Below, piece after piece: positions 4,533 through 32,472 of a stretch of 33,523 nt of DNA. A program made the translations under genes and the position numbers. Source of the DNA: a virus; the IMG/VR virus record IMGVR_UViG_3300020172_005026, positions 1 through 33,523 of that record, one strand, 5' to 3'. How positions within the stretch are numbered: the first letter of the stretch is position 1; each line of letters opens with the position of its first letter. The notes under the pieces are model-generated. The model was not told the origin of the DNA, did no database searches, and saw only the letters and a program-made list of their open reading frames with translations.

Positions 4533-5528
4533 ATGGAAAAATCAATTGTAGATGTTGTAATCGGTATGCAGTATGGAGATGAAGGCAAAGGTAAAATTGC
4601 CAATCAAATGGCTGCATCTGGTGATTATGACTTTGTATTTCGATTCAATGGTGGAGGAAATGCAGGTCATACAATTTACCTCAATGGAGAGAAAATTGTT
4701 ACACATCTTGTTCCTTGTGGTATTCTGCATGGCATTCCTAGTGTCATCGGTAATGGTTGTGTTATCAATACACAAAAATTATTTGACGAACTTGAGTATC
4801 TTGAAGGATTTGGATTCGATACATCAATCCTTAAAATAGCAGAAAACGCACATATAATTACTAAAGAACATATTGACGAAGATTCCAAAGATACTAAAAT
4901 TGGAACTACTCGCACTGGTAATGGCCCTTGTTATAGAGACAAAGTGGCTCGTACTGGAATTCGTGCCAAAGATGTTCCAGAATTAGCACCATATCTTGTT
5001 GATATGCATAGTCTTATTCATTCTTCCCCAAAGAAATTTTTAGCTGAAGGAGCTCAAGGTTATTGGCTTGACATTGACTTCGGCGATTATCCTTACGTCA
5101 CATCATCAAATACAGGAGTAGGAGCAGTACTAAATAATGGTTTCAATTTTAGGCAAGTTCGGAATGTTGTCGGGGTTATCAAATGTTATTCTACCTATGT
5201 TGGAGCTAAAGGATATCAAAAACACGACGAGCGATTTGAAAAGCTGCGTGAGATTGGTCAAGAATATGGAGCCACTACTGGTAGACCAAGACAAATAGAT
5301 TGGCTAAATCTTGATGAAGTAAATACTGCTTGCCAAATGAATGGAATCACTAAACTGATTGTAAACAAAATGGATGTTTTAGCTCAAGTTGAAAATGGCT
5401 GGGACTGGTATCAAGATGGTAAATTGCATTTTGTTGATGATGAAGGTTCGTTTATGCTTTGCATAATGAATCAAATTATGAAATATAATCCAGGTATCGA
5501 AATTGAATTCCAGGGGCAATTACATTGA
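4533..5528 (+). CDS. Short adenylosuccinate synthetase, archaeal PurA or PurZ0-like
   Basis: PurA joins aspartate to IMP using GTP. PurZ-type phage enzymes act on dGMP in the pathway to 2-aminoadenine. The P-loop GDEGKGK is at 15-21, and D16 matches the PurA catalytic Asp. H46 in NAGHT matches the second catalytic residue. The IMP-site segment GTTRTGNGPCYRDKVAR and the aspartate loop ATTGRPRQIDW (R251 and R253 kept) follow. The 331-residue length is about 100 less than bacterial PurA and fits archaeal PurA and phage PurZ. The segment DVPELAPYL also looks archaeal. Classical PurZ replaces the Asp with Ser, and this protein does not, so it resembles the PurA-like intermediate forms called PurZ0. 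No DatZ, MazZ or DpoZ is in this window. Its stop (TGA) overlaps the clamp start. Confidence 0.88.
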   Translation: MEKSIVDVVIGMQYGDEGKGKIANQMAASGDYDFVFRFNGGGNAGHTIYLNGEKIVTHLVPCGILHGIPSVIGNGCVINTQKLFDELEYLEGFGFDTSILKIAENAHIITKEHIDEDSKDTKIGTTRTGNGPCYRDKVARTGIRAKDVPELAPYLVDMHSLIHSSPKKFLAEGAQGYWLDIDFGDYPYVTSSNTGVGAVLNNGFNFRQVRNVVGVIKCYSTYVGAKGYQKHDERFEKLREIGQEYGATTGRPRQIDWLNLDEVNTACQMNGITKLIVNKMDVLAQVENGWDWYQDGKLHFVDDEGSFMLCIMNQIMKYNPGIEIEFQGQLH

Positions 5529-7649: not shown

Positions 7650-8213
7650 GTGAATGACAAGTATCAACATATCAATGAACTTATAGCTAAGATCAAAAAT
7701 AAAAACACTGACGCCTTATCTGAGCTTTTTGATTTCTATAAGCCTTTATTTTTATCTTCTATAAAAAGATGTATTGCTAAAGAGCCTAAATTTTCTGAAT
7801 ACAGAGAAGATATGTTGCAAGAAAGCTTTTTTGTGTTGGAAAAGCTTGTCAATGATTATGATCCAGATCTAACTTACTTCTCTTATTTTATATCTACAAG
7901 AATAGATATAAATTTATTTAGAAAATGTCAACATTTGATTGAATCAAATGAAATCATTGAAATCTGTGAAAAATATGAAGCAGTTGACAATGACCCTTTC
8001 AATACGTTAGAAACAAAGATAGTTTTAGATGATGCTATTGATATGCTTAATGAGAAGCAAAAAGAAGCAATTCAACTTTATTTCTTTGAAAATTTAGATC
8101 AAAATAAGGCTGCTGAAATATTGGGAATTAAACAAGCAGCCTTTTCAAAAAGATTAGCTAGAGCTTTAGAAAATTTAAAAGCAATTTTAGGAGAAGATTT
8201 CTTATGCTTTTAG
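7650..8213 (+). CDS. Second sigma-70-family RNA polymerase sigma factor
   Basis: This 187-residue protein has an ECF-like two-domain architecture. Region 2 contains EYREDMLQESFFVLEKLVNDY followed by YFSYFISTRIDINLFRK, where the quoted core is REDMLQESFF. Region 4 is a helix-turn-helix: LNEKQKEAIQLYFFENLDQN, then KAAEILGIKQAAFSKRLARAL. It is distinct from the SigH-like factor at 3794. The start is GTG, because the ATG two bases earlier reads straight into TGA. The stop overlaps the 3-prime end of the convergent gene at 8202 by 12 bases, with no terminator between them. As the last gene of the early block it could switch transcription to the structural genes, but that is inference. Confidence 0.85.
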   Translation: MNDKYQHINELIAKIKNKNTDALSELFDFYKPLFLSSIKRCIAKEPKFSEYREDMLQESFFVLEKLVNDYDPDLTYFSYFISTRIDINLFRKCQHLIESNEIIEICEKYEAVDNDPFNTLETKIVLDDAIDMLNEKQKEAIQLYFFENLDQNKAAEILGIKQAAFSKRLARALENLKAILGEDFLCF

Positions 8214-11039
8214 TCTTCTTTGATTGAAAACTTTTGCTTTCTTTTCAGGAGTGAAAGGATCGGTATTTTCTTCTTCTTCAGATTCAAGAGTAATATTTGA
8301 TTGTGGTTCAGGCTTTAGGGGCTCAAGACCAGGGAAATAACCTTTAGGTCTTTTTCTACTCTCTGCTGGATTAGGGTCTGAGCCTTGTTGAAATGTCCAA
8401 CTATCTTGAGGTAATTCTTTTCCGGTAAATACTGGAAACACAGTATCAAGCTTTCTCCCACCAGGTACAGGTTCTGTTTGCCCAATCATCCATTCTGAAA
8501 TATTGGAAATATCTTCAGCGGATGGTGGTTCTGGTTCAATAGGATGTTTAGCAAATGTTTTAGGAGTATTGGGGTCATCAGTGTCTATGACATCAGAATC
8601 CAATAAGCCTTGAGCTATGGCATCTGTTATTTTTGTAAAATAATTTTTCAAATATCCTTTTAGAACTGATGTTGAAACATCTTCAATATCAAAAATTAAT
8701 TCATGGCCTACTCTGATGATATCAGTTTCAGCTTGTTTTAGTTGTTCTTCCAAATCTATTTTTCTTCTGAAATCTAGTGGATCTATACTTTCTAGTTCTC
8801 TCTTTAGACTATTCTTTCTTGAAATTAGACTTTTTCGTTTATCTCTTTTAGCAAAAGTTGAAAATAAATCATGAAAAAGCATTTCAAGTTTTATTCTTTG
8901 TCTTTCTAATATTTTGCCAATAGCTTCATATGGATCTGGTATTTCAATTTCAGTTCCATCCTTCTTGATAATCTTTCCAAAGTTATCGGCTCTAAATTCA
9001 GGAGTAGCATCTTCCATCATTAATCTTTGGAAATTTGTACCACCTGACATTAAGTGCACTTTTTCATAAACAATGTCATGAATCCATTGTTCTTTGGCAG
9101 CTTCATATATTTTTTTGGACATTGTAAGTCCTTGAATTCTTGAATCAAATAAAGATTTTAAATATGGAATGTCACCATGAATTCTTGCATACAATTCAGG
9201 TGGGCTCATTACATAAGCTTCTGATTCAGTGAGTTCAGGGTTTAATGCTATAGGCTGTATCATCATAGAATCACCCACTGCCAAGTAATGTAAGGCATGA
9301 GCTATTTCATGTCTTCTTGTTGACTCAGTAAATCTGTATGCATCAATACCTAAACTAGAAGCTAATCCTTTATGATGTTCTAAAGAATCATATGCATCGG
9401 TTCTTATAATAATTGCTGGTAATGGTTGACCTGATTCTGTAGGAAATCTTGGAACAAAAACTCCTCTCCATAAACCACTAGTAAAATCAATAGTTTCAAT
9501 TTGCAACTTTGTAACTTTGTTTCTTTTTAGAAAATCTTGTAAGCTATTAGCATCAAATTCAAGAATAATCATATTTGATGCATATTTTTCTAAATCTTCT
9601 TTTGGTACTGTAGAATAAATTCTTTCTTGTTCCATTCTTTGAAGATAACTAGTTTGCCAATTTGTAAATGTTTGTGCAGCTGACATTTGCAAATCATATT
9701 TTTTTCTTTCTTCTGGAGTTGGATTATCCCCTAACACAGGTTCTCTATAGCTGTTATCCTTATCAGGGTTCATAACCATTTCAAAAGCATTTATTTTTCG
9801 AATAACATTTTCTGAAATTGCCTTTTCTAAAAGTTTCAATCCACTTTTTAAAATAGATTTTTGTGCTTGAGTGCTTTGTTGAGTTGCTTGTTGTACTTTA
9901 ACTTGTCCAAGCCTATCTATTGCTTTTTGAGTAAAATTAGTTAATCTTTCAGGATGTTTTGTAAGATACTCTTCCATTACTTCAACAGTAGAAAATCCTC
10001 TATACATCCATTTATCAGCAAGTTTGTCGCCTTGCTTATGGCACCAATCTACAAATAATTCATCATTCAATAATCGATCAACAATATCATTTTTTAAGTC
10101 GGTTGAACTTATGTATTCTTGAAATGAATATAGTAAGACACTATCAGTATAATCACTTTCATTATTAGTGGCACCAATTTTGTTTCTAAAATACAAATAA
10201 AGTTGTATATCTTCTTTAGCACCTGTCAATAGAAAAATATTACGCAACTCATCATTGAAAAACATATTAGTGTTAATGATAGCTTCATACAATTCAACTA
10301 ATTTTTCAAAAGACAAACCTGATCTTGAAAGAAAGCTAATTTTTTGTTGATTAGCCTTAAGTACATCTTTAGAAGGTGTTTCATTATCAATATATTCTAC
10401 TAATGTTTCAACAGACGAATATCTATCATAGTTTGGATCCTGTTCTAAAGCACGTCCAATAATTTCTTGTCTTGCATAATTATTTTCATTTTGTCCATTA
10501 TTTTTAACATCATCGCCTCTGATAATGTACATTAATGACGCTGGATCAATGCCTATTCCACTTGCATTTAATAGATTCAATGTGTTATAGCCAATAGCAA
10601 ATAATTCCTTAATTTCATATTGCATCGCTTTTGGATCAGAGGTATGACCACCCAATAAAATTGAAAGTGCACCAAGTCTTTTTTCACAAATTTTAGCAGC
10701 TTTTGACATAAATGTTAATATGACTGAAGTGTCATCATCTGGCGTTCCTATATGTCTAAGGTGAGTATTTACAAATTTTACTAGATATTCTATGAAAACT
10801 CTTAAATCGTAAGCACTGTTTTCCTTACTTGATTCATATAACTTAAGTATTCCAGAATTATTTATAAATCTTATAAACTCACGCAAGTCATAAATGCTTG
10901 GCATTTTATCTTCATTACTAAAATTATAATCTTTGAATGTTTCCCTAAAAGTGCCTTTCCAATCAATGGATTTGCCTTTTAAAACATCATAGGCTTCAGC
11001 GGCTTCGACAATCTTCTTATATCTTTTAAAATTCCACAT
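8202..11039 (-). CDS. Large zinc-metallopeptidase-domain protein, possibly virion-associated
   Basis: This 945-residue protein is the only long - strand gene in the interior. Residues 1-400 are helical with no recognised domain. A polar Gln/Thr-rich linker lies near 410-425 (QQATQQSTQAQ). The only motif I recognise is RRHEIAHALHYLA (H577, E578, H581), a HExxH zincin signature. It is followed by SPPELYARI, where E615 could be the third zinc ligand. A charged coiled-coil-like region lies near 745-810, and a Pro/Glu-rich disordered tail is at 850-945. The start MWNFKRYKKIV is aromatic and basic like the MWYRI tags elsewhere. Its length, disorder and position beside the structural block suggest a virion or ejected enzyme, which is inference. 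The role and substrate are unknown. Confidence 0.7.
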   Translation of the reverse strand: MWNFKRYKKIVEAAEAYDVLKGKSIDWKGTFRETFKDYNFSNEDKMPSIYDLREFIRFINNSGILKLYESSKENSAYDLRVFIEYLVKFVNTHLRHIGTPDDDTSVILTFMSKAAKICEKRLGALSILLGGHTSDPKAMQYEIKELFAIGYNTLNLLNASGIGIDPASLMYIIRGDDVKNNGQNENNYARQEIIGRALEQDPNYDRYSSVETLVEYIDNETPSKDVLKANQQKISFLSRSGLSFEKLVELYEAIINTNMFFNDELRNIFLLTGAKEDIQLYLYFRNKIGATNNESDYTDSVLLYSFQEYISSTDLKNDIVDRLLNDELFVDWCHKQGDKLADKWMYRGFSTVEVMEEYLTKHPERLTNFTQKAIDRLGQVKVQQATQQSTQAQKSILKSGLKLLEKAISENVIRKINAFEMVMNPDKDNSYREPVLGDNPTPEERKKYDLQMSAAQTFTNWQTSYLQRMEQERIYSTVPKEDLEKYASNMIILEFDANSLQDFLKRNKVTKLQIETIDFTSGLWRGVFVPRFPTESGQPLPAIIIRTDAYDSLEHHKGLASSLGIDAYRFTESTRRHEIAHALHYLAVGDSMMIQPIALNPELTESEAYVMSPPELYARIHGDIPYLKSLFDSRIQGLTMSKKIYEAAKEQWIHDIVYEKVHLMSGGTNFQRLMMEDATPEFRADNFGKIIKKDGTEIEIPDPYEAIGKILERQRIKLEMLFHDLFSTFAKRDKRKSLISRKNSLKRELESIDPLDFRRKIDLEEQLKQAETDIIRVGHELIFDIEDVSTSVLKGYLKNYFTKITDAIAQGLLDSDVIDTDDPNTPKTFAKHPIEPEPPSAEDISNISEWMIGQTEPVPGGRKLDTVFPVFTGKELPQDSWTFQQGSDPNPAESRKRPKGYFPGLEPLKPEPQSNITLESEEEENTDPFTPEKKAKVFNQRRLKA

Positions 11040-12647: not shown

Positions 12648-13396
12648 TGAATTTTTCACTTAATTTTGACACAGTAAATATTGACCAGTACTTGAAGATG
12701 TTAGTGGCTGAACATCATTTAGGAACTAATGATTATTGTATGCACGATAGGAACTCAGATTATTGGGATATTCTTATAGCTCCCGCCAAGAATTCAGATT
12801 ACAAGGTTGCATTAGATTTTGGAACTTCATTAGGGAGAAATGTTACCAACTTATCAGAGCTTGGTAATTTTCAAGAAATTTATGCCACAGACTTAAGCAC
12901 CAAGAACATAGATAAATGTACCAATAGCTTTCCATCAAATTGTCATTTTGTATTATCTGATGGTCAGAAAATGCCTTATTTTGAAGATAACAAATTTGAT
13001 TTCATTATATCTACTCTTGTTTTTCAACATATTCCGGTAAGAGATTTAAGAAATATGTGGTTTAAGGAAATTTACAGAGTATTGAAGCCTGGTGGAACAT
13101 TTACTTTTCAAATGGGCTTTGGAAAATCTTTAAATGAAAGAGCTTTTCCTAATCATTTTTTCTGCTTGATGAGAACTGGAACTCTCACTGTTCCTAGCGC
13201 TTTACCATGCGCAAGCTATTTTGAAAATATTACTGATGCAATTGGTTCTAATGGTGAATACGATGTCAAAGTTACAAATCCAGTTCCTTTAATGGATGAT
13301 TTAAAAAGATTTGGTTTTAAAGCAGAATATCAAATTAAGGATGCATTTGACGATTATATTCACACTCAATGGATTTATGTAACTTGTACTAAATGA
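12647..13396 (+). CDS. Class I SAM-dependent methyltransferase
   Basis: The 249-residue protein has a class I methyltransferase core. Motif I is VALDFGTSLGRNV, motif II ends IYATDLS with an acidic residue for the SAM ribose, DGQKMPYFEDNKFDFIIST matches the motif III-IV region, and the post-IV helix FQHIP is followed by YRVLKPGGTFTFQM. This is the Methyltransf_11 pattern, seen with small-molecule, lipid, sugar and protein substrates. There is no DPPY or PCQ motif of DNA methylases, so a DNA target is not supported. It sits between the small and large terminase candidates, with overlaps at both ends (stop/start at 12647 and ATGA at 13393), so it is made with the packaging proteins. The substrate is unknown. 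Confidence 0.85.
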   Translation: MNFSLNFDTVNIDQYLKMLVAEHHLGTNDYCMHDRNSDYWDILIAPAKNSDYKVALDFGTSLGRNVTNLSELGNFQEIYATDLSTKNIDKCTNSFPSNCHFVLSDGQKMPYFEDNKFDFIISTLVFQHIPVRDLRNMWFKEIYRVLKPGGTFTFQMGFGKSLNERAFPNHFFCLMRTGTLTVPSALPCASYFENITDAIGSNGEYDVKVTNPVPLMDDLKRFGFKAEYQIKDAFDDYIHTQWIYVTCTK

Positions 13397-15513
13397 GAAA
13401 GCCTAACCCTATAAAAGCGCAACAATTTGATGTGAAAAATCAAATGTTGCAAAAAGCAAACGAGGTATCAAAATTCCTCAAAGATCAAGGATATGCGTCT
13501 GAGTTTAGTGATGACATTATGCCATCAGCTAGAGTTGAAGTTCCTCCACCTCCAAAACCAGAAAAAACAAATTTCAACCCTGACCAAAATGTTGACATTA
13601 TTACTTTTATAGAACATCCATATTTTTGTAATTTGAAACCACACCCTTGGCAAAGACTCATTCTTAAATGTTTTTATATGGGTCAAGAAGGCAATACAAA
13701 TATAGAAATTGAAGATGTTCCTGAAGAAAATAGAACATCTTGTGAAGGTTGTGTATGGGAGCACATTAGAGACAATGAAATAGATGTGCTTCAAAAGAAA
13801 AGACAAGGCAAAATTGTCAAAGCTTTATTCACTGTAGACAATTCACCGTGTTTACAATGCTCTCATTTTGATGAGCAAGTTAGAAAAGAAAGATATGAAG
13901 ATGCAAAGTTAGGTGCTACAAACTTTGATGCCTTGAGATTAATTGACACACTCATTGAGAGACCAATCATAAATGCATTTCAATCAGAAAAAGATTTATT
14001 ATTTTCTGAAGAATTTGATACTAAGCTTAGAATGCAAGTTATGGAAAAATGTACAAAACGATTCAAATTTCAAGAATTAGTTTTAGTACTTGGAAGACGT
14101 TCTGGCAAATCATTCCTTGTATCAGCTATTGCACTGTATGAACTTTATAGATTAATTATGATGGGCCATCCACAAGCTAGATATGGCCTTATGGAATTTG
14201 ACCAGATTGTTCTTCTTAATGTTGCTAGAAATGAAGAACAGGCTAAGAACGCTATCTTTTCAAAAATAAAACAAACTGTTTTATCTTCTCCATTTTTCCA
14301 ACCATACATTGGCAAAGATACTGAATTGGAGATGAGATTTCTTACTGACAACGATATCAAGGAAAATGAAAGAAGAACTGTTCAGGGATTAAATCCTTTT
14401 GCTGGATCTTTAGTTTTAAAATGTGGTTCAAGTAGTGCATCAGGTCTTGTTGGTTTAACTTGTTGGTGCATAATCATGGACGAAATTGCTGCTATGGCAG
14501 GTGATAACCCTGATTCAGGATTAGATTATGCCCTTTATGATGAACTAAAGCCATCTTTAGCTACCTTTGGCAAAGATGGAAAGATGATGATGCTTTCCAA
14601 CCCTAAAGGCCCTATTGGATTATTGTATGATCTTCATGAAAACAGACAAGAAGATCCCACTACATTGGTTATGAGACTTCCTACTTGGTTGGCTAATCCA
14701 AACATTGCAAAAGAATTTCTTGATAATGAAAAGAAGAAAAATCCTACAGAATTTCAAATGCAATATGGTGCTGAGTTTGGAGCATCATCATCTGATCCAA
14801 TGTTTACCCCTGATTCTGTCAATAGCATGTTTAACAGTATGTCAATGGTTCCAAGAAGAGAATTTGGACAATCATTGACAGAATATTTTTGTCATCTAGA
14901 CCCTGCAAGAACTAGTGACTATTATGCTTTAGTTATTGCCCACACAGAAAATATTATGGGCATGTATGGGCCTGACAAGCAGCCCATGAAAAGAGTTGTA
15001 ATTGACCATATCCATTTCTGGAATCCAATGACAAAAAATCAACCAGTTTCAGAAAGAGAAGTAGAAGATTATGTTATTGACTTGCACCAAAGATTTAAGT
15101 TCACACAAGTTTCAATTGATCAATGGCATTCACAATCTTCAATACTCAAATTAAAATCAAATGGAGTAAATATTGTTGAAAGACAATTCAATAAAGAATA
15201 TAAAGAAAAAATATACACTGAACTTTCACAACTTATCAGAGAGGAACGCATTGATATTTATGATTTGTCAGGCGGAGCTTATCTTGATTCTGTTGGCAAT
15301 AAGATACCACTAAATGAAATCCAAGAAGCAAAAACTCAGTTTTTGTTTTTGCAAAAGAAATGGAAAGGTAAAAGATACTATATCGAATCCCTTTCTGGTT
15401 ACAAAGATGATATTTGTGATGCAGTAGCTGCTGTCTCTTATGAATGTCTGACAAATAGAATACAATCTAGATTACCTTCATCAAAATTTGTAAGTATAGG
15501 AAGGTTTAAGTAA
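13393..15513 (+). CDS. terL: Terminase large subunit
   Basis: TerL is the ATP-driven packaging motor with a C-terminal nuclease that cuts concatemeric DNA. Walker A is GRRSGKS (234-240), Walker B is CIIMDE (D363, E364), and the coupling motif is MMLSNPKG near 400. The RNase H-like nuclease is seen as HLDPARTSDYYALV (D503), VSIDQWHSQS and DDICDAV (D672, D673, D676). The 706-residue length exceeds the usual 450-600. An extra N-terminal part carries CEGC (117-120) and CLQC (153-156), which could bind zinc, in front of the ATPase. The start is ATGA-coupled to the methyltransferase gene. Confidence 0.95.
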   Translation: MRKPNPIKAQQFDVKNQMLQKANEVSKFLKDQGYASEFSDDIMPSARVEVPPPPKPEKTNFNPDQNVDIITFIEHPYFCNLKPHPWQRLILKCFYMGQEGNTNIEIEDVPEENRTSCEGCVWEHIRDNEIDVLQKKRQGKIVKALFTVDNSPCLQCSHFDEQVRKERYEDAKLGATNFDALRLIDTLIERPIINAFQSEKDLLFSEEFDTKLRMQVMEKCTKRFKFQELVLVLGRRSGKSFLVSAIALYELYRLIMMGHPQARYGLMEFDQIVLLNVARNEEQAKNAIFSKIKQTVLSSPFFQPYIGKDTELEMRFLTDNDIKENERRTVQGLNPFAGSLVLKCGSSSASGLVGLTCWCIIMDEIAAMAGDNPDSGLDYALYDELKPSLATFGKDGKMMMLSNPKGPIGLLYDLHENRQEDPTTLVMRLPTWLANPNIAKEFLDNEKKKNPTEFQMQYGAEFGASSSDPMFTPDSVNSMFNSMSMVPRREFGQSLTEYFCHLDPARTSDYYALVIAHTENIMGMYGPDKQPMKRVVIDHIHFWNPMTKNQPVSEREVEDYVIDLHQRFKFTQVSIDQWHSQSSILKLKSNGVNIVERQFNKEYKEKIYTELSQLIREERIDIYDLSGGAYLDSVGNKIPLNEIQEAKTQFLFLQKKWKGKRYYIESLSGYKDDICDAVAAVSYECLTNRIQSRLPSSKFVSIGRFK

Positions 15514-16553: not shown

Positions 16554-16570
16554 TATGTAAAAACATATTA
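16551..16570. repeat. Hairpin bridging stop and next start
   Basis: TAATATGT (16551-16558) and ACATATTA (16563-16570) are perfect 8-base arms around AAAA. The left arm includes the stop codon of the previous gene, and the right arm ends on the A of the mutase ATG. The AT-rich stem is weak but could limit start-codon access, or serve as an operator. Confidence 0.45.
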
Positions 16571-17688
16571 TGTATGATTATTTGATTATAGGAGCTGGAT
16601 TATTTGGCTCTATATTTGCATACGAAGCAAATAAAGCTGGTAAAAAAGTATTAGTTATTGATAAAAGAAATCATATAGGTGGAAATTGTTATTCAATTCC
16701 ATTTGACGATTATCATATTCATCGATATGGCCCACATATTTTTCATACATCTAAAAAATATATTTGGGATTATATCAATCAATTTTCTTCATTCAATAAT
16801 TATTCCCATAGAATAAAAGCTCATACTGATGATAGATTATATTCTATACCTATAAACTTGAATACATTTAATCAAGTTTGGCCTGATGTAAATACTCCAG
16901 AACAAGCTAAACAAAAATTATCTCAAGAAATTATCCCATGTCAAAACCCTGAAAATCTTGAAGATCATATATTGTCTCAAGTTGGCCCTACATTATATAA
17001 AAAATTCATTTATGGATATACCAAAAAACAATGGGGCAAAGATCCAAAAAAATTACCAGCTTCAATTATAAAAAGGCTACCAATAAGATTTACTTTTAAT
17101 GATAGATGGTTTCATGACAATGATGTTTATGAAGGCATTCCTACAAATGGCTACACACCCATATTTGAAAAACTTTTATCAGGTATAGAAGTGCATCTAA
17201 ATACTGATTATTTTGCAGATAGAACATACTTTGATTCATTAGCTAAAAAAATAGTTTATTCAGGGCAAATTCAACAGTATTTTGACTACATGTATGGGGA
17301 TTTAGAATACAGAACATTAGAATTTAAGGATTTCAAGATACAAGCTGAAGATTATCAGGGTGTATCAATTATAAATTATCCCTCTAATGATGTAGCTTGG
17401 ACAAGAATTATCCAGCATAAACATTTTCATTTTAGTAAATCACCAATGGATTTTATTACATATGAATATTCAAAGCAATACAATAAAAATGATCCAAATC
17501 AAATTCCTTATTATCCAATCAACACTGAAGAGAATAATCTTATATACAAACAATACAAACTTTATGCTGAAAAAGAACATTCAAAATTGATTGTTGGTGG
17601 AAGATTAGGTAACTATAGATATTATGATATGGATATGACTATAGGAAATGCCTTGACTACTGTCAAGAAAGAACTTGAAGGAATTTAG
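16570..17688 (+). CDS. glf: UDP-galactopyranose mutase
   Basis: This flavoenzyme interconverts UDP-galactopyranose and UDP-galactofuranose, the donor for galactofuranose glycans. The FAD-binding start is YLIIGAGLFGS (G8, G10, G13), with VIDKRNHIGGNCY binding the FAD ribose region. Family segments follow in order: YGPHIFHT, KKQWGKDPKKLPASIIKRLP, FNDRWFHDNDVYEG, INYPSNDVAWTRIIQHKH, and C-terminal GGRLGNYRYYDMDMTIGNAL. At 372 residues it is full length. The enzyme appears intact. It lies inside the structural block, and no galactofuranosyltransferase is visible in this window. No SD is visible before the ATG, and an 8-base hairpin overlaps the start. I infer a role in decorating virion or host surface with galactofuranose. 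Confidence 0.95.
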   Translation: MYDYLIIGAGLFGSIFAYEANKAGKKVLVIDKRNHIGGNCYSIPFDDYHIHRYGPHIFHTSKKYIWDYINQFSSFNNYSHRIKAHTDDRLYSIPINLNTFNQVWPDVNTPEQAKQKLSQEIIPCQNPENLEDHILSQVGPTLYKKFIYGYTKKQWGKDPKKLPASIIKRLPIRFTFNDRWFHDNDVYEGIPTNGYTPIFEKLLSGIEVHLNTDYFADRTYFDSLAKKIVYSGQIQQYFDYMYGDLEYRTLEFKDFKIQAEDYQGVSIINYPSNDVAWTRIIQHKHFHFSKSPMDFITYEYSKQYNKNDPNQIPYYPINTEENNLIYKQYKLYAEKEHSKLIVGGRLGNYRYYDMDMTIGNALTTVKKELEGI

Positions 17689-24083: not shown

Positions 24084-26414
24084 ATGGCAAAACGAACATC
24101 TCTAGCACAAGCAATTAGAACTTCAGCTCATCAAGTGACTGGAGAAACTAGTAAAGGTCGTGAATTTGCTCAACAAGATAGAAATTATGCCAACAGTAGA
24201 ATAAATGCAGGTTTAGGACCTAGTGTTAGAACTTCTAGTGTAAACTCGATAACAACATCTCCTAACTTTTATTCACCATTCTTAACACCTTCATCATTTC
24301 AAATTCCAAATGCTCGACGTGAAGTATATCTTTGGGCTAACTGGTGGAGAAATAATGAGCCAAAAGTAGCAGCTGCTATGAACTTCTATACAAACTATCC
24401 TTTTTCGGGATGGAAATTAGATTGTTCCTCTACATATGTCAAGGACTACTTTGAAAAACTTATTGAAAAACTTAATTTTCAAAAATGGCTTCCTGAAATT
24501 TCCAAAGTTTATTATTTACTTGGTGATGCATTTGTTTTACTTTCCATAGAATGCCCAAATTGTGGTGGTAGTGGATGGAATGAAGATAAGAATGAAGAAT
24601 GTAAGCATGATGGAGCTTCTTGGAAATCTATATCTATCTTAAATCCTGATGCTGTTCTTAAAACACCAGGCATGATTGACCAACCAGGTTCTTATTCCTA
24701 TAGACCATCTGCTGAAGAAGTTAGAATTGTAAACGAAAGACAACCTAAAGAAGTTTATGATTCTATTCCAGACAGTATCAAAAGAATGATTATAAAGGGT
24801 GAACCAATCAAGTTGAACCCTATTTCAATCCACCATTTTAAACATGGCTCTAATCCATGGGAAGACTACGGTACATCCTTAATTAGACCACTTTTCCCTG
24901 TGCTTACTTACAAGGATAAGTTAAGACAATCTCAGTTTCTTATTGCTGAAAGATTAGTTTTACCAATCAAGGTAGTAAAAATTGGTAGTGATACAAGACC
25001 AGCATCTCAAGAAGATATTGATAATGTACAGGATGAATTGGCATCTTTAGCCAACGATCCAAACCTTACATTAGTTACACACCATAATTTTGATTTGGAA
25101 TGGTATGGAGCAACTGGAAAGATTCATGCTTTAACTGGTGAATTTGAAATTATTGATGGTGAAATTTTAGATGGTCTTATGCTTTCAAAGGCATTATTAA
25201 ATGGAGAAGGCCCAACTTATGGTAATGCTCAAGTTGGTCTTCTTGCTATGCAACAAAGACTTGAAACATTTAGAAGAGAAGTTGCCCACTGGATTGAACA
25301 ACAAATTTTTAAACCAGTAGCTGAATGGAATGGATTTGTTGTTGAAGGCGAAAGAGGCCAAGACGAGATTGTATTTCCTAAAATTTCTTTTGATGACTTA
25401 AATCTTAGGGATGATTCTCAAAAACTTCAAATTATGGCAACTGCTAATCAGCAAGGTGTTATTTCCAATACTTCATTAATCGAAGCTTTTGGACTTGATG
25501 TTGACCAAGAAATTGAAAGATTGAGATACGAGCAGGGTTCATCCTTTATGAAGGAATCTAATTTTGGAAATCCTAGCTTTAGCATGAACATACAATCAGG
25601 ACCAGTTACAGGTATGGGCTTTGGTGCTGCTCCTATGGGAGCACCAGGCATGGCTCCTGGAATGGCACCTCCAGCTGCTGAAGCAACAATGGGTCTCACT
25701 CCTCCAATAGCTTCAACCAAAGAACAAAACTATAGATTAGCTTCAACTATCATAAACGAATTATATGATGAAGCTGTTCAGCATAAAAATAATACTATAG
25801 GTAAGAGATTTGCTTCTAAAAGATTCAAATCAGCTGCACATGAAGATTTTATTAAGTCAATCATGCCTGTCACTGGTAGAGGAATGCACGGACCAATTCC
25901 TGAGAATTATGATGGTTTGGGTGGCAATTTGTATGTTCCATTTTTAGGTGGAGATGCAAGTGAGCCATTGAACTTTGAAGCACATTTTGAGCTAAGAAGT
26001 ATACATGCATCTTCAGATGAAGAAGTGAGAAAAGTCATAGCTGCTAAAACTGAAAAGCAAACGCCAAAACTTTATACTTCATTAGAAAAGAAACTTTATG
26101 CTTTATTGATGTCACTCAATATGCCTCATCCTCTATATGCTCAATATTCAGCTGGACCAAATTTTGATTATCAACTTGATGCAGCTATTCCATCTTTAGG
26201 TATTGGTATTGAAGCTGATGGTGAAATATGGCACAACAATTTTGACAAAATTACTAAAGATAGAAAAAGAGATTCTGAATTAGCTAACAATGGCTGGATT
26301 ATTGTTAGATTTACTGATAAAGAACTAAATGATCATCCTAACGATTGTATTAAAGTTTTAACTAATGCAATTCAAAAAAGGACAAATCATACAAAAGAAA
26401 AAATTACTTTATAA
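24084..26414 (+). CDS. Portal protein fused to a C-terminal PD-(D/E)XK-type nuclease domain
   Basis: Residues 70-490 have the tailed-phage portal layout: YLWANWWRNNEPKVAAAMNF, wing and stem helices, IHHFKHGSNPWEDYGTSLIR, LRQSQFLIAERLVLP, and SKALLNGEGPTYGNAQVGLL before the crown. A CPNC (157-160) plus CKHDG cluster may bind zinc. A Gly/Ala/Met/Pro-rich linker lies near 510-540. The last 110 residues resemble DUF559/Vsr-like nucleases: LDAAIP (D699), GIGIEADGEIWHN (E710, D712), RKRDSELANNGWIIVRF, then a basic tail. The catalytic acidic residues are kept, so the nuclease may be active. The 776-residue total is well over the usual 450-550. The terminator at 26438 follows. The portal call is strong and the nuclease call is by motif. 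Confidence 0.9.
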   Translation: MAKRTSLAQAIRTSAHQVTGETSKGREFAQQDRNYANSRINAGLGPSVRTSSVNSITTSPNFYSPFLTPSSFQIPNARREVYLWANWWRNNEPKVAAAMNFYTNYPFSGWKLDCSSTYVKDYFEKLIEKLNFQKWLPEISKVYYLLGDAFVLLSIECPNCGGSGWNEDKNEECKHDGASWKSISILNPDAVLKTPGMIDQPGSYSYRPSAEEVRIVNERQPKEVYDSIPDSIKRMIIKGEPIKLNPISIHHFKHGSNPWEDYGTSLIRPLFPVLTYKDKLRQSQFLIAERLVLPIKVVKIGSDTRPASQEDIDNVQDELASLANDPNLTLVTHHNFDLEWYGATGKIHALTGEFEIIDGEILDGLMLSKALLNGEGPTYGNAQVGLLAMQQRLETFRREVAHWIEQQIFKPVAEWNGFVVEGERGQDEIVFPKISFDDLNLRDDSQKLQIMATANQQGVISNTSLIEAFGLDVDQEIERLRYEQGSSFMKESNFGNPSFSMNIQSGPVTGMGFGAAPMGAPGMAPGMAPPAAEATMGLTPPIASTKEQNYRLASTIINELYDEAVQHKNNTIGKRFASKRFKSAAHEDFIKSIMPVTGRGMHGPIPENYDGLGGNLYVPFLGGDASEPLNFEAHFELRSIHASSDEEVRKVIAAKTEKQTPKLYTSLEKKLYALLMSLNMPHPLYAQYSAGPNFDYQLDAAIPSLGIGIEADGEIWHNNFDKITKDRKRDSELANNGWIIVRFTDKELNDHPNDCIKVLTNAIQKRTNHTKEKITL

Positions 26415-26533: not shown

Positions 26534-29500
26534 ATGTATAGGATTGCAAAAGGTGGCGCTATAACTATCAATAGTTTCTTGAATGAAGCAGATAGGAAAG
26601 TAGCTAGAGAACATATGTTAAGAACAGCTTCTACAACTATGAGAGAGGCTGCAAAAATTGGCTTGCAATCATTATATGCAGATCCAAAAGAAGTACTTGA
26701 AAAGTATAAAGATTTTGACATTGTTAAAGAAATGCAAGCTCGTAAAGGTGCAAAACTTTTATGGGTTAGAGCTAGAGCTATAGATGCTGACACTGTAAAT
26801 GCAAATGGTGACTATTTCTCCAAAGAAGAACTACTCAAAGAAGTAGAAATCAAAGGGGAGAAAATTCCAGCTTATAAAACTTTTGAAGGCGTACCAATTT
26901 ACACCAACCACAAGAATGATGACATAGAACAAGCCAAAGGTATGGTTGTTTATGCTGAGTGGAATGAAGAACAAAATTGTGTTTACTGTACTTTTTTTGT
27001 AGATGAAGAAGCATATCCTGACATTGCCAGAAACATTAGAACTGGTGTTATCCATGATGTATCAATGGGTTGTTCTGTTGACTATGGTATTTGTTCAAAA
27101 TGTGGAAATAAAGCTTTTACTGAAAAAGATTATTGTGAATGTTTGAAAAAGTACAAGGGCAAAACACACCCTGAAACATCAAAGAAGATTTACGAAGAAA
27201 ACTATAATCTTAAATTTATCGAACTTTCTTGTGTTGGTGATGGAGCTTTTGAAGCTTGCGAAATTCAAGAAATATACGATGTTGATGATGTATTGAGCAC
27301 TGCTGAAAGCTTAGAGAAAAAAGCTAACGAAATTGTAGCCAATATTGTTCTTGCATATGAAGGCGCTCCAGTAACAAATAATGAGAGAGCTGCATATGAA
27401 AATTGTTTAAGAGTTGCCCAATCAACATCTTTATCAGCACTTAGACTAGCTCAAAATGCTGGAACACTTGTAGGTGGACCACTTTTAGCTGGTCCAGGAT
27501 CTAATCAAAATTCAACTGTTGCAGCAATTCTGCAAGCTTTAGGTATTGATCCAAGATCAGGACTAAATATCTTAGACTTAATCAATCTTTCTCTTAACTT
27601 CTTAGAAGTTGCAGTTATGAATTTATTTGCAAGAAAAGACAATGTTGATCTAACACACGTTGGCAAAATCACTAAAGGTATGGCTGATTTACAAAGTGTT
27701 ATGCAAGACATGATTGACGATGGTGTTGATGTTGGAAGTGGACAAAGACCACAACCAATTAATCAAGGACAAACTCCACAAGCTCAACAAGCTTCAGCAC
27801 CTGTAAATACTCAGGTTGGTCTTGCAAATTATGCTCCTACAGGTGGTGTTGGAAAGATTATGGAGCTTAATTCTCCAACTCAACAAGAACAACCAGTAGG
27901 TTCTGGTGTTGCTTTAGCATCATCAAATATAAATTTTGTTTGGGCATCTAGGGATGGCAAAAGAGAAGTTTTTGCTAGTACCTCGTATAACAAACATGAA
28001 GATTCTAGTAAAATTTTGAATTTCACAAAAAGTATTTTAAACCTTAAGCAAGTCTTAGGTGCTTCAAAAGATATTCAAAATGGCATAGATAACGTCATTA
28101 GAGTAGCTAATGAGAGAAATAAAAACATAAAAAATAATGCGCCTATCAAGGCGGAGGGCAGAAATCAAATGGATCATTTTGCAAAAATCGCACAAGAGCA
28201 GAGAAAAAAGCTTGCTGCTGCTGTAACTATCGATTTTAAAGTTGAAGACAATTCTGGCAACAGAGTGGTTCTTTCAACAGATGGCTCTATCATAGGTTAC
28301 ACTAATGGCAAAAGAACAAACTGGGAACCAATTTTGTCTGAAACTCACATCAATATGATGGAAAGTGGACAAGGGACCAGAGTTGCTGCTGAACTTCTTG
28401 GCGAATATGGAAAATTTGTCAAGACTGCATTACTTGATGTCAAAGAAAGACTTGATGACAGACAAGAACAACTTGAAGAAGTAAGAACTGGCGAAGGCTA
28501 CGATGGAAAAAGTGTATCGGATGCATTATCAGTTCAACATAAAGGCTTTTCTGACAAAACTAATGAAGAAAAGCTTGAATCATCAAGAACTGGTGCTGGC
28601 GCTGGTGATGTAAAAGAAAAACTTCTTGCTGATGCTGGACTCTATGGCCATAAGGTCAAGGATCTTGAAGTTAAGCAAGCACTTTCTGAACTCATCGATA
28701 GTGTAAATCATGGTGTTCCAACTGAAGTTTTAGAAAAGCAACTTGCTGCTTGTAGAACTGAAGGTTCAGCATCTGCTCATGAAGTTATGTCAGCAACCAT
28801 CAATGCATTAGGTAAAGCTGTAGTATTAGCAAAAGAAACTCCTAAGCGCATTCTTAAGGTTGCTCAAATGCTTTCAGAAGATGAAAAGCTTCCTGAAATG
28901 GTTGGCGCTGCTGCTGCAGATATGCCAAATCAAATGGAAAGAGCTGAGAAGACTGAGTTCTTCAAGGATGAAGAGGCTCCAGTATCAGGTGCTTCTGCTA
29001 TTCTCAAATCAATTGCTGCTCAAGTTTCTGATTCAGTCACTGCAAAAGATTTAGCTGATGCTTTAGCTGTTGCACTTGATGAGCAAGAAATCACCATTGA
29101 AGGTGTTACTAGAATCGCAGAACTTATGCTTGCATCATCACCAGCTCCTGAAGAAGGACTTGATGTTGAAGCTCCTGCATCTGATAAATCTGAAGAATTG
29201 AGACAAGCTCTTCAAGATTCACTTTCACAAGATAAGAATTATATTACAAAAGAAGCTCTTCAATCAGCTATCTCAGCTATGGCAATGTCATCTCAAGAAA
29301 CTCAAACTGCACCAGGAGAGCCTGTTGAGGCAGTTGACAGTATGACTGATAGAGAACTTGTTGCAGCTATCAATAGAGCTAAAACTGCTTCTGCAACAGA
29401 ATCCAGATTAAGAGCAAGAGAAAGAAGAGAATTCTGGGGTGTTAAAACTGCATCAGCAAAGACTCTTGAATCAAATGTAATTGGCTGGCTTGCTGATTAT

Positions 29501-30712
29501 TCTACCAACTTTGGTATTCCAACAACTAAAATTGCTTTAGCTGCAAAGAGATTGGCTGAAGATTACGATCTTGCTGAGAAGTTAGTTGCAAAAGCTATCG
29601 AAACAAAGCAAAATCTTGAAAAAACAGCTGGTATGTCAGTCACACACCACAAGTCAGATTGCTTGACATTTATGTGCACAAAAGAAGATTTAGGTGGTAT
29701 GGACCCAGCTGATCAAGGCTTTGAAGATTCATTCAAGCAAAAAGCTATTGAAGTTCTTCAATCAAACAACTTCCAAGTTGATCCTGGCACATTCTCATTT
29801 ACAAATCTTACAGTTTCTTCAAGTGGACAAATCACAGCAACAGTTTCAACATCTGTTTCTAAATCATTTGATGTTGATGGCGATGAAGTTGAATCAGATG
29901 TAGATGTTGTTGTTGATGCTGGTGAAGAACTCCCAGTTATAATGACCGAATCAGCTAAATTTGCAAGAAGAGCTAAAAGAGAAGAAGTCTTAAGAAAATA
30001 TGCTCAAGCAGTTCCTGGAGTTGCACCAGCTGGACCTGCTGCTGGTCCTGTAGATCCAATGGCTGGAATGGCAGCTCCTGCAGCTGAAGATCCAGGTGCG
30101 CTTGGATTGACTGGTATGCCAGCTGAAATGGGTGATATGGGCGACATGGATGCTGTTTCAGAACCAGGACAAAAGAAGCCTTGGGGTTCAGTATGTCCAG
30201 TTTGTGGATCTGATGATGTAAATATATCAGAAGGTAATGCAGACTGCCAAAGTTGTGGAACAAACTACAAGATTCTTCAATCACTTGAACTTATTTCTGA
30301 AGGAGATAAGGGCAAATCAATGGATGAATCGGGTGACATGGGCTTAGGACTTGACATGGGCTTGGGAGCTGCTACAGCTCCTACTGAAACTGCTCCAGCT
30401 ACACCAGGAGCACCTCCTGCACCAGCTGGCGGAATGGCACCTATGGCTAATTCATCTGCAAGAGCTATGTTTAGATTAGCTACCACAGTTGACTCAGATG
30501 TTTATCTTAGAACTGCTATGCCAGACTTTGATAAGACAAATGAAAAGAGATTACCAGTTGGTATGATCTGCCCAAGTTGTGGTTCAAGAGAAGCTCATAA
30601 AGTCAAAAATAACACATTCTGCTATGATTGTGGTACTTATGCGAAGACTAAAGTGGCTTCAAATAAGAATAATCCATCAAAATTGGATATTACTATCACT
30701 TGGATTGACTAA
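26534..30712 (+). CDS. Prohead protease fused to a long scaffold-like region and two zinc ribbons
   Basis: The first 270 residues match phage prohead core serine proteases: LLWVRARAIDADTVNANGDY, H126 in YTNHKNDDIEQAKG, and S177 in HDVSMGCSVDYGICSKCGN, followed by a second cysteine pair (DYCECLKK). H126 and S177 are the likely catalytic pair. Residues 280-1210 are Ala/Gln/Glu-rich and mostly helical, like a scaffold, with one beta-rich patch (1050-1120). Two zinc ribbons end the protein: CPVCGSDD/CQSCGTNY at about 1221-1241, and CPSCGSRE/CYDCGTYA at about 1346-1365. At 1392 residues it is several times the normal protease length. It begins MYRIAKGG and has an AAGGA SD. Self-cleavage into a protease, scaffold pieces and ribbon modules is a plausible inference. 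Confidence 0.82.
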   Translation: MYRIAKGGAITINSFLNEADRKVAREHMLRTASTTMREAAKIGLQSLYADPKEVLEKYKDFDIVKEMQARKGAKLLWVRARAIDADTVNANGDYFSKEELLKEVEIKGEKIPAYKTFEGVPIYTNHKNDDIEQAKGMVVYAEWNEEQNCVYCTFFVDEEAYPDIARNIRTGVIHDVSMGCSVDYGICSKCGNKAFTEKDYCECLKKYKGKTHPETSKKIYEENYNLKFIELSCVGDGAFEACEIQEIYDVDDVLSTAESLEKKANEIVANIVLAYEGAPVTNNERAAYENCLRVAQSTSLSALRLAQNAGTLVGGPLLAGPGSNQNSTVAAILQALGIDPRSGLNILDLINLSLNFLEVAVMNLFARKDNVDLTHVGKITKGMADLQSVMQDMIDDGVDVGSGQRPQPINQGQTPQAQQASAPVNTQVGLANYAPTGGVGKIMELNSPTQQEQPVGSGVALASSNINFVWASRDGKREVFASTSYNKHEDSSKILNFTKSILNLKQVLGASKDIQNGIDNVIRVANERNKNIKNNAPIKAEGRNQMDHFAKIAQEQRKKLAAAVTIDFKVEDNSGNRVVLSTDGSIIGYTNGKRTNWEPILSETHINMMESGQGTRVAAELLGEYGKFVKTALLDVKERLDDRQEQLEEVRTGEGYDGKSVSDALSVQHKGFSDKTNEEKLESSRTGAGAGDVKEKLLADAGLYGHKVKDLEVKQALSELIDSVNHGVPTEVLEKQLAACRTEGSASAHEVMSATINALGKAVVLAKETPKRILKVAQMLSEDEKLPEMVGAAAADMPNQMERAEKTEFFKDEEAPVSGASAILKSIAAQVSDSVTAKDLADALAVALDEQEITIEGVTRIAELMLASSPAPEEGLDVEAPASDKSEELRQALQDSLSQDKNYITKEALQSAISAMAMSSQETQTAPGEPVEAVDSMTDRELVAAINRAKTASATESRLRARERREFWGVKTASAKTLESNVIGWLADYSTNFGIPTTKIALAAKRLAEDYDLAEKLVAKAIETKQNLEKTAGMSVTHHKSDCLTFMCTKEDLGGMDPADQGFEDSFKQKAIEVLQSNNFQVDPGTFSFTNLTVSSSGQITATVSTSVSKSFDVDGDEVESDVDVVVDAGEELPVIMTESAKFARRAKREEVLRKYAQAVPGVAPAGPAAGPVDPMAGMAAPAAEDPGALGLTGMPAEMGDMGDMDAVSEPGQKKPWGSVCPVCGSDDVNISEGNADCQSCGTNYKILQSLELISEGDKGKSMDESGDMGLGLDMGLGAATAPTETAPATPGAPPAPAGGMAPMANSSARAMFRLATTVDSDVYLRTAMPDFDKTNEKRLPVGMICPSCGSREAHKVKNNTFCYDCGTYAKTKVASNKNNPSKLDITITWID

Positions 30713-30815: not shown

Positions 30816-30846
30816 TTTGTATTTTGTAAGGGAAGCAGCAAAAAAA

Positions 30847-32472
30847 ATGAATGAAAAAATGAAGAAAGCCACTAATCAAGACACATTGAAGGCTCTTCGT
30901 ATTGCTGAAATTAAAGCTACTGATAAGGAAGATTTCAACAATTGCGTTAGTGATCTCGTTAAGACAGCATCATTAGATACTGACGAAGCAAAGATTATTG
31001 CAAACGCTATTAGGTCAAAATTTTTACCTAACATACTCAGAGAAGCTGGTTTCGAAGACGATGAGATTAAAGATCATGTAAATCTTGATTCTGAGGCAGA
31101 ACAGACTGCAGACTTCGCAAATGATTTTTCCAATGATGATGAAGAAGATATGCTTGATGATGAAGATGATCAAGAAGACGATGATTTTGAAGATTTAAAT
31201 ATGGACGAAGACGAAGTAGACGATGAAGAAGAAACGGCTACATTTGAAATAGAAGTTCCCGCTGATATGGTTGACGCCGCAAAGCAAGCAGTGCAAGAGG
31301 CGCTCGACAATCTTCTTGGCGGAGAAGATGCTGACATTGATACTGATATGGAAGATGATGATGATATGGACTCTGACATGGAATCTGATGAAGATTTAGA
31401 CATGGAAGATGATATGGATGATGATTCTGATATGGAAGAAGATATGGAAGATGACGAAGACATGGAAGAAGATTCCGAGCCAGAAATGCACAAAACAAGT
31501 AAGGTGAATAATATGACTAAGCAAGCATTGGCTGCTCGCCGTGCAGAAAGAGAAGACATCCTTCGCAGATTAGCTGCTGAGGAAGAACATGTACAGGCGT
31601 CAGCAAGTTTCAAATATAACAACGAGATGGCAAATATGCCAGGTGAAGTTGACTATCCAACAATGAAGTTACAAGGCGAGAACTCAATGAAGGGTGAAAA
31701 CCCTAGTTGGTCCGATCAAAAGGTTCCTACTAAGAACCCAGGAAGCCTTCAATTTCCAGATGTTACCAAGCCTTCAAACTTTGAAGGTGCAGGGGATGGA
31801 TCTTTAGAGTATACAGTTGATTGGGATTCATTAGAAAATCCTTCAGAAGGTTCCGAATACGATATGTTCGAAGTTCCAACTGAAATGGCTGGAATGCCAC
31901 ACAAAACTACTGTAGCAAACTCCAAAACAGCTTCTTATGCGATGGAAGCTGAAGCAAAACATGCTGTCCAGTGCTCAACATGTGGGTACAAGACAATGAT
32001 GACACAAGCAGAGATGGACAATCCTGATACTGATTGTGAAAAATGTAATGAAAAAGAAGATCGCGATGTTGATTCAGCTGTCAACATCAAGCCAGATGGA
32101 AACATCACGGTAACGTCAAGCTCATTAGATCTTGAAAGAGCAAGAATTAAGACTGCTTATTCATGTTCTAATAAGTTAGCTTTAGCTGGAATTATTGAAG
32201 CAAGTGAAGTAGATGCTTATTCTGAGCAAATGCTTAACGACAATCTCAAGGCTGATGCAATGGTCAGACAAACAAAGCTTTTGCTTAAGTCTGCTCAAGC
32301 AAGTTCTGAAAGAGTTGCTGCAGCTGCTGCAGACAGAATGACTCGTACAGCTTCTTCAAATGGTATTTCAACATCTCCTGCATTTAGTGGTTCTTCAATC
32401 ACAAACAATGCAGCTCTTGATATCCAAGCTGCCCTTAAGGGTACTTGGTCTATGCCACAAATCGAGGACTAA
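30847..32472 (+). CDS. Very acidic scaffold-like protein with zinc ribbon
   Basis: The protein (541 residues from this ATG) is helical for the first 80 residues. It then has long Asp/Glu runs, with an acidic Met-Glu-Asp repeat region (DSDMESDEDLDMEDDMDDDS) at about residues 165-215. The segment MTKQALAARRAEREDILRRL follows. A possible zinc ribbon (CSTCGYKTM, then CEKCNEKED) is near 375-400, and the C-terminus is helical and Ala-rich. Position directly before the decoration and capsid genes and strong acidity suit a scaffolding or assembly protein. I chose ATG 30847, with GGAAG 11 bases upstream; TTG 30817 is also in frame and would add a 10-residue start, MYFVREAAKK, but it lies right after the leader palindrome. 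Confidence 0.72.
   Translation: MNEKMKKATNQDTLKALRIAEIKATDKEDFNNCVSDLVKTASLDTDEAKIIANAIRSKFLPNILREAGFEDDEIKDHVNLDSEAEQTADFANDFSNDDEEDMLDDEDDQEDDDFEDLNMDEDEVDDEEETATFEIEVPADMVDAAKQAVQEALDNLLGGEDADIDTDMEDDDDMDSDMESDEDLDMEDDMDDDSDMEEDMEDDEDMEEDSEPEMHKTSKVNNMTKQALAARRAEREDILRRLAAEEEHVQASASFKYNNEMANMPGEVDYPTMKLQGENSMKGENPSWSDQKVPTKNPGSLQFPDVTKPSNFEGAGDGSLEYTVDWDSLENPSEGSEYDMFEVPTEMAGMPHKTTVANSKTASYAMEAEAKHAVQCSTCGYKTMMTQAEMDNPDTDCEKCNEKEDRDVDSAVNIKPDGNITVTSSSLDLERARIKTAYSCSNKLALAGIIEASEVDAYSEQMLNDNLKADAMVRQTKLLLKSAQASSERVAAAAADRMTRTASSNGISTSPAFSGSSITNNAALDIQAALKGTWSMPQIED
31346..31475 (+). repeat. Imperfect short tandem repeats encoding Asp/Glu/Met runs
   Basis: The DNA repeats units like GATATGGAAGATGAT with small variations, giving runs of ASP, GLU and MET codons inside the scaffold-like gene. 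The opposite strand reads as a Ser-rich open frame for the same reason, and I treat that as a shadow. Confidence 0.6.

Follow-up and report, generated by a model that had tools for sequence, protein, structure and literature searches.

A phage portal protein with a predicted C-terminal Vsr-fold nuclease domain, conserved in two clades of viral contigs

Known portals and head-associated nucleases

Portals are usually dodecameric rings, and they are usually regarded as DNA gates without an enzyme activity of their own. The nearest named relative of the portal considered here is gp14 of Bacillus phage G, which has a homologous portal core followed by a disordered Gly/Pro-rich tail at the same place; however, the gp14 tail ends at residue 648 without a nuclease, and the phage G genome gives no match to the nuclease profile. 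The DUF559/REase_MTES_1575 nucleases, including NGO0050 (3hrl), share the fold and the D...E-x-D layout of the domain described below, but the known members found either stand alone or are joined to non-virion proteins (in two phages, to annotated helicases). The homing endonuclease I-Bth0305I (3r3p) and the mismatch endonuclease Vsr (1cw0) belong to the same fold family as the portal nuclease, which is itself without an intron or homing context.

According to PMC7824862 (citing Benler 2020), T4 gp4 is a virion-associated head-completion nuclease of the REase fold that is needed for packaging; it is a possible functional analogue, although it is a separate TnsA-like protein that is not fused to the portal. 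T4 gp49 (endonuclease VII) is a nuclease acting at the portal gp20 (PMC9958956, PMC4870245), but it is bound non-covalently and has a different fold. MuF proteins are head proteins encoded beside the portal with C-terminal toxin or nuclease domains (PMC5576092); they are, however, a different protein of temperate phages with variable domains, whereas here the portal itself has one fixed domain. A portal with a nuclease domain was not found described in the full-text literature searched, which lay mostly outside subscription papers, and the first-pass annotation of this DNA had likewise known of no such description. Portal and nuclease are each of a known kind; as far as can be told, it is their combination and its conservation that are new.

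A portal core, a flexible tail and a Vsr-fold nuclease in one reading frame

On the evidence of sequence profiles and predicted structures, a single ORF encodes a phage portal, a flexible tail and a C-terminal PD-(D/E)XK nuclease of the Vsr fold and the DUF559/MTES_1575 type. The window, the whole 33,523-nucleotide stretch analysed (a 33.5-kb virus record), carries this gene intact and uninterrupted on the plus strand at 24084..26414, encoding 776 aa from ATG to TAA, with Portal_Mu and DUF559 both scoring over their Pfam cutoffs. It lies in a packaging/head module together with the terminase large subunit (TerL) and a protease-like gene, and all of its parts named below are on the same strand.

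The portal core spans residues ~70-490 (24291..25553) and comprises the wing, stem, clip, long wing helix and crown helices (445-490). The Portal_Mu match covers residues 236-470 at 40.4 bits against a Pfam cutoff of 23.9, phage G gp14 is matched by tblastn at 4e-60 with 29% identity over residues 20-488, and the predicted portal fold (residues ~72-469) matches tens of solved portals, including T4 gp20, with Z scores of 16-20; model residues 76-494 align to residues 70-515 of T4 gp20. The full-length model, built on 26 sequences, runs in the order of wing, stem helix, clip, stem, long helix, crown helices, disordered linker, middle region and nuclease, with good confidence for the portal wing and nuclease core and poor confidence for the crown, linker and middle region. 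The portal fold had been placed as ending near residue 500, and in the model the crown helices indeed end at ~490 and give way to the disordered linker. The flexible Gly/Met/Pro linker of the first reading is likewise present as a Gly/Met/Pro/Ala-rich segment at residues 491-545 (25554..25718), with a pLDDT of about 26-30 over most of it and a length that varies among relatives. The ensuing middle region (residues 546-660; 25719..26063) is poorly ordered, with low model confidence; within the window's clade, its KSAAHEGF...PV[TS]GRG...LPEEYDG stretch is conserved in the alignment.

The nuclease domain occupies residues 661-770 (26064..26393) and was recognised by both profile and structural matches. 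DUF559 (PF04480) matches residues 695-763 with 21.9 bits (full length) and 24.8 bits (domain) against a cutoff of 20.6, rising to 37-40 bits in relatives, while REase_MTES_1575 (PF18741) scores 35.4 (full length) and 37.7 (domain) bits in the window (E 1e-8) against a cutoff of 38.2, which is passed by the relatives L209 (39.6 bits) and L282 (41.4). An AlphaFold2 model of residues 546-776, made with 17 family members, has a nuclease core with confidence of 80-89 over most of its length and one block at 72. Among the PDB chains preselected by Foldseek, which define the scope of the ranking, VIA-align placed 3hrl (NGO0050) first (Z 13.2, rmsd 1.6, 92 residues), followed by 3r3p (I-Bth0305I; Z 13.0) and Vsr 1cw0 (Z 10.7), all three above the PD-(D/E)XK and mitochondrial RAP-domain-like rows. 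The family sequence profile independently matches 3r3p at 1.4e-5 and 3hrl at 2.5e-5, with its D...E-A-D aligned to the motif of 3hrl. The DUF559/Vsr-type fold proposed at the outset, together with its three acids and the GWIIVRF stretch, is consequently borne out by Pfam and by these structure matches.

The predicted catalytic acids are D699 (codon 26178..26180), on one model strand (151-157), and the E-x-D pair of E710-A-D712 (26211..26219), on the neighbouring one (162-167); the three align with the same acids of 3hrl. A conserved histidine, H717 (26232..26234), follows, and a helix-1 acid, E668 (26085..26087), is invariant in the window-clade alignment, an E being read by eye at the matching helix position of the divergent members. 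The intact active-site residues suggest that the domain is catalytically active. No conserved start with a ribosome site from which a separate nuclease could be made was found inside the gene, but the native start is likewise without one, which leaves the absence uninformative.

In the portals of T4 (crown residues 451-524), SPP1 and P22, the crown is the part that lies furthest inside (PMC4493910). Since the nuclease follows the crown helices 445-490, the domain is predicted to lie inside the head, on the lumenal face. By this inference, which draws mainly on topology, the crown model being of low confidence, the tethered nuclease should sit on the lumenal side inside the capsid and not at the clip where terminase cuts. 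The earlier suggestion of a nuclease at the DNA channel therefore holds only loosely, the predicted place being the lumenal face.

Distribution, conservation and inheritance of the fusion

Both domains were found in one ORF, in the same frame, at 187 overlapping loci from three viral-contig scans, which correspond to 59 distinct fusion sequences; a frame or assembly artefact is ruled out by this recurrence. The fusion, which the first-pass annotation had proposed looking for in related portals, falls into two clades of viral contigs, with one relative on a 476-kb contig, and is present in every complete portal of both clades except on one contig (L051). The divergent clade (L205-L211, L213-L215, L282) keeps it at ~43% portal and 30-38% nuclease identity. 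Portals without the nuclease comprise contig-end truncations, the phage G clade (L056/L287, L283, L286, L291), the distant L057 and L058, and L051. In the last of these (the same contig as L203 and L271), an in-frame TGA at 7651-7653, in the Gly-rich linker, splits the portal from an otherwise intact nuclease frame, which could be a sequencing error, read-through or a real separation.

No record in the isolate-phage collection searched has the fusion, portal matches there covering at most about 60% of the query, and its nuclease matches are annotated helicases (two phages) or genes that overlap or adjoin methylases. Among the cellular nuclease relatives, ten ORFs were read and none is a portal. 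Each of nine carrier records holds exactly one nuclease of this type, always within the portal ORF, and no stand-alone copy elsewhere in the genome.

Conservation was assessed on 31 dereplicated rows, or 30 without the window's own second copy. Q687, D699, E710, D712, G713, H717, D726, R729, D730, G737, W738, R742 and F743 are invariant in all dereplicated members, and the invariance of the active-site residues holds down to ~33% nuclease identity. Portal and nuclease distances from the identity matrices are correlated (Mantel r 0.94, reached in 0 of 1000 permutations). Over 40 close pairs, which are not independent and in some of which dS is near saturation, the nuclease has a median dN/dS of 0.023 and the portal one of 0.028, against 0.089 for linker plus middle region. 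By these sequence measures, the nuclease evolves as slowly as the portal and is under strong purifying selection. A trait so widespread and so slow to change is easier to reconcile with a core virion function than with a patchy accessory one, and because the key nuclease residues never change, the domain probably serves a central purpose in genome packaging or delivery. Since two clades of uncultured huge phages share the trait, it is probably important for the packaging or delivery of very large genomes.

Two kinds of insertion or extension were also observed in related portals. The divergent-clade portals L205, L207, L208, L211, L214 and L282 carry in-frame intein-like insertions, several at a conserved LNGEGP motif, the one in L282 matching LAGLIDADG_3. 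The phage-G-type portal at L283:3698-6745, of about 1000 aa, has a long unrelated C-terminal extension without a nuclease match.

Possible roles of the tethered nuclease

With a conserved and apparently intact nuclease turned towards the packaged genome, the questions arise of what is cut, when, and how the phage's own DNA is protected. The fusion, the predicted fold, the intact active site, the purifying selection and the co-inheritance of the two parts are supported by sequence and prediction. As to function, the reading tentatively preferred, with somewhat less than even confidence, is that of a head-morphogenesis nuclease which processes the genome at the portal, by analogy with the unfused precedents of T4 gp4, the REase-fold head-completion nuclease needed for packaging (PMC7824862, citing Benler 2020), and the portal-bound resolvase gp49 (PMC9958956, PMC4870245). 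Each portal subunit would carry a tethered Vsr-fold endonuclease, giving perhaps twelve or so copies per virion if the ring is the usual dodecamer, and each domain would be joined to the portal crown, inside the capsid, through a long disordered tether. There, while the genome is being packaged or the head completed, the domains would act on genome DNA at the portal, the exact step being a guess, for example end trimming or the removal of a DNA irregularity, with the outcome that packaging can finish or that the genome can later exit. The end trimming and end-of-packaging use put forward in the first reading would survive in this form, as the best guess, and not as a substitute for the terminase nuclease, whose motifs are kept.

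Several observations temper the morphogenesis role. A lumenal nuclease cannot easily reach the end cut by terminase outside the head. The carriers also appear to have a RusA-like resolvase, two of five matches passing the cutoff, so that a debranching role is not obviously vacant; the proposal of a vacant resolvase niche was dropped in view of these matches, RuvC and Endonuclease_7 being not found in the five carriers searched. The T4 gp4 families phrog_218 and PF08722 (TnsA-like) gave no match in the carrier records, portal ORF included, while T4 itself was detected. This absence says little, because gp4-like proteins were not detected in phage G either, which lacks the fusion, and displacement of a T4-gp4-like protein is for the same reason not supported.

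Ranked second, and decidedly less probable, is that the nuclease is an ejected effector: released from the portal or still on its tether, it would pass into the cell alongside the genome and cleave the DNA of the host, of plasmids or of rival phages, while some modification or site preference spared the phage's own DNA. The predicted lumenal position and long flexible tether would suit such a path, and the next gene downstream (26534..30712, plus strand; 1392 aa), whose N-terminal part resembles a head-maturation protease (phrog_18299, 3.5e-17, residues 86-241), leaves room for release. Nucleases related through the Vsr fold often recognise particular sites or structures, and one that faces its own genome in the virion must have some way of sparing it. 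A known analogy is offered by the MuF toxins with nuclease domains encoded beside portals (PMC5576092). Attack proteins, however, are usually patchy and fast-evolving, whereas this nuclease is carried by almost all complete members and changes no faster than the portal; nor was any phage DNA-modification system identified in the window. A short adenylosuccinate synthetase is encoded there at 4533-5528 (331 aa), with PurA-type models best, and Z-base protection of phage DNA was rejected since its score of 122.8 is far under the PurZ cutoff of 300. The attack on host or competing DNA raised in the first-pass annotation could take place, but conservation this extreme is more in keeping with a core virion function. 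That the portal is a virion-borne weapon in the full sense, with some twelve lumenal nuclease domains that, once released or borne into the cell along with the genome, would destroy resident DNA, is judged unlikely.

Improbable, in turn, is a catalytically inactive or barely active tail that organises or grips DNA at the portal. The fold alone would permit DNA binding, and in P22, too, a long C-terminal extension of the portal lies within the head (PMC4493910), but the invariance of E710, D712, D699, H717, R729 and D730 down to ~33% identity would be difficult to account for if there were no catalysis. A captured, self-spreading homing endonuclease with no role for the phage is very improbable: I-Bth0305I is among the close structural matches and inteins with homing domains occur inside related portals, yet no intron or intein surrounds the domain, no Rfam match was obtained at the gathering threshold, and the domain is fixed at the C-terminus, co-inherited with the portal and strongly conserved, whereas homing enzymes come and go. 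Least credible of all is the replacement of a lost terminase nuclease, since the lack of a Terminase_6C match in ten carrier records looks like a profile limit (the ATPase profile Terminase_6N missed them too), and the window's TerL (13393..15513, plus strand), recognised by phrog_2 at 2.2e-26, keeps its own RNase H-type nuclease motifs (D503/D509, D576, D672/D673/D676, conserved in 77 TerL sequences), so that the packaging cut has its own enzyme.

Elsewhere, the window encodes a clamp loader, a sliding clamp and sigma factors. A 945-aa ORF on the minus strand (8202-11039) was unmatched in PHROGs, Pfam and NCBIfam at the thresholds applied, and a 551-aa ORF (30817-32472) has a weak zinc-ribbon match, under the Pfam cutoff, to Cas12f1-like/transposase TNB domains. 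The packaging region also contains a UDP-galactopyranose mutase-like gene at 16570-17688 (GLF, 3.3e-67).
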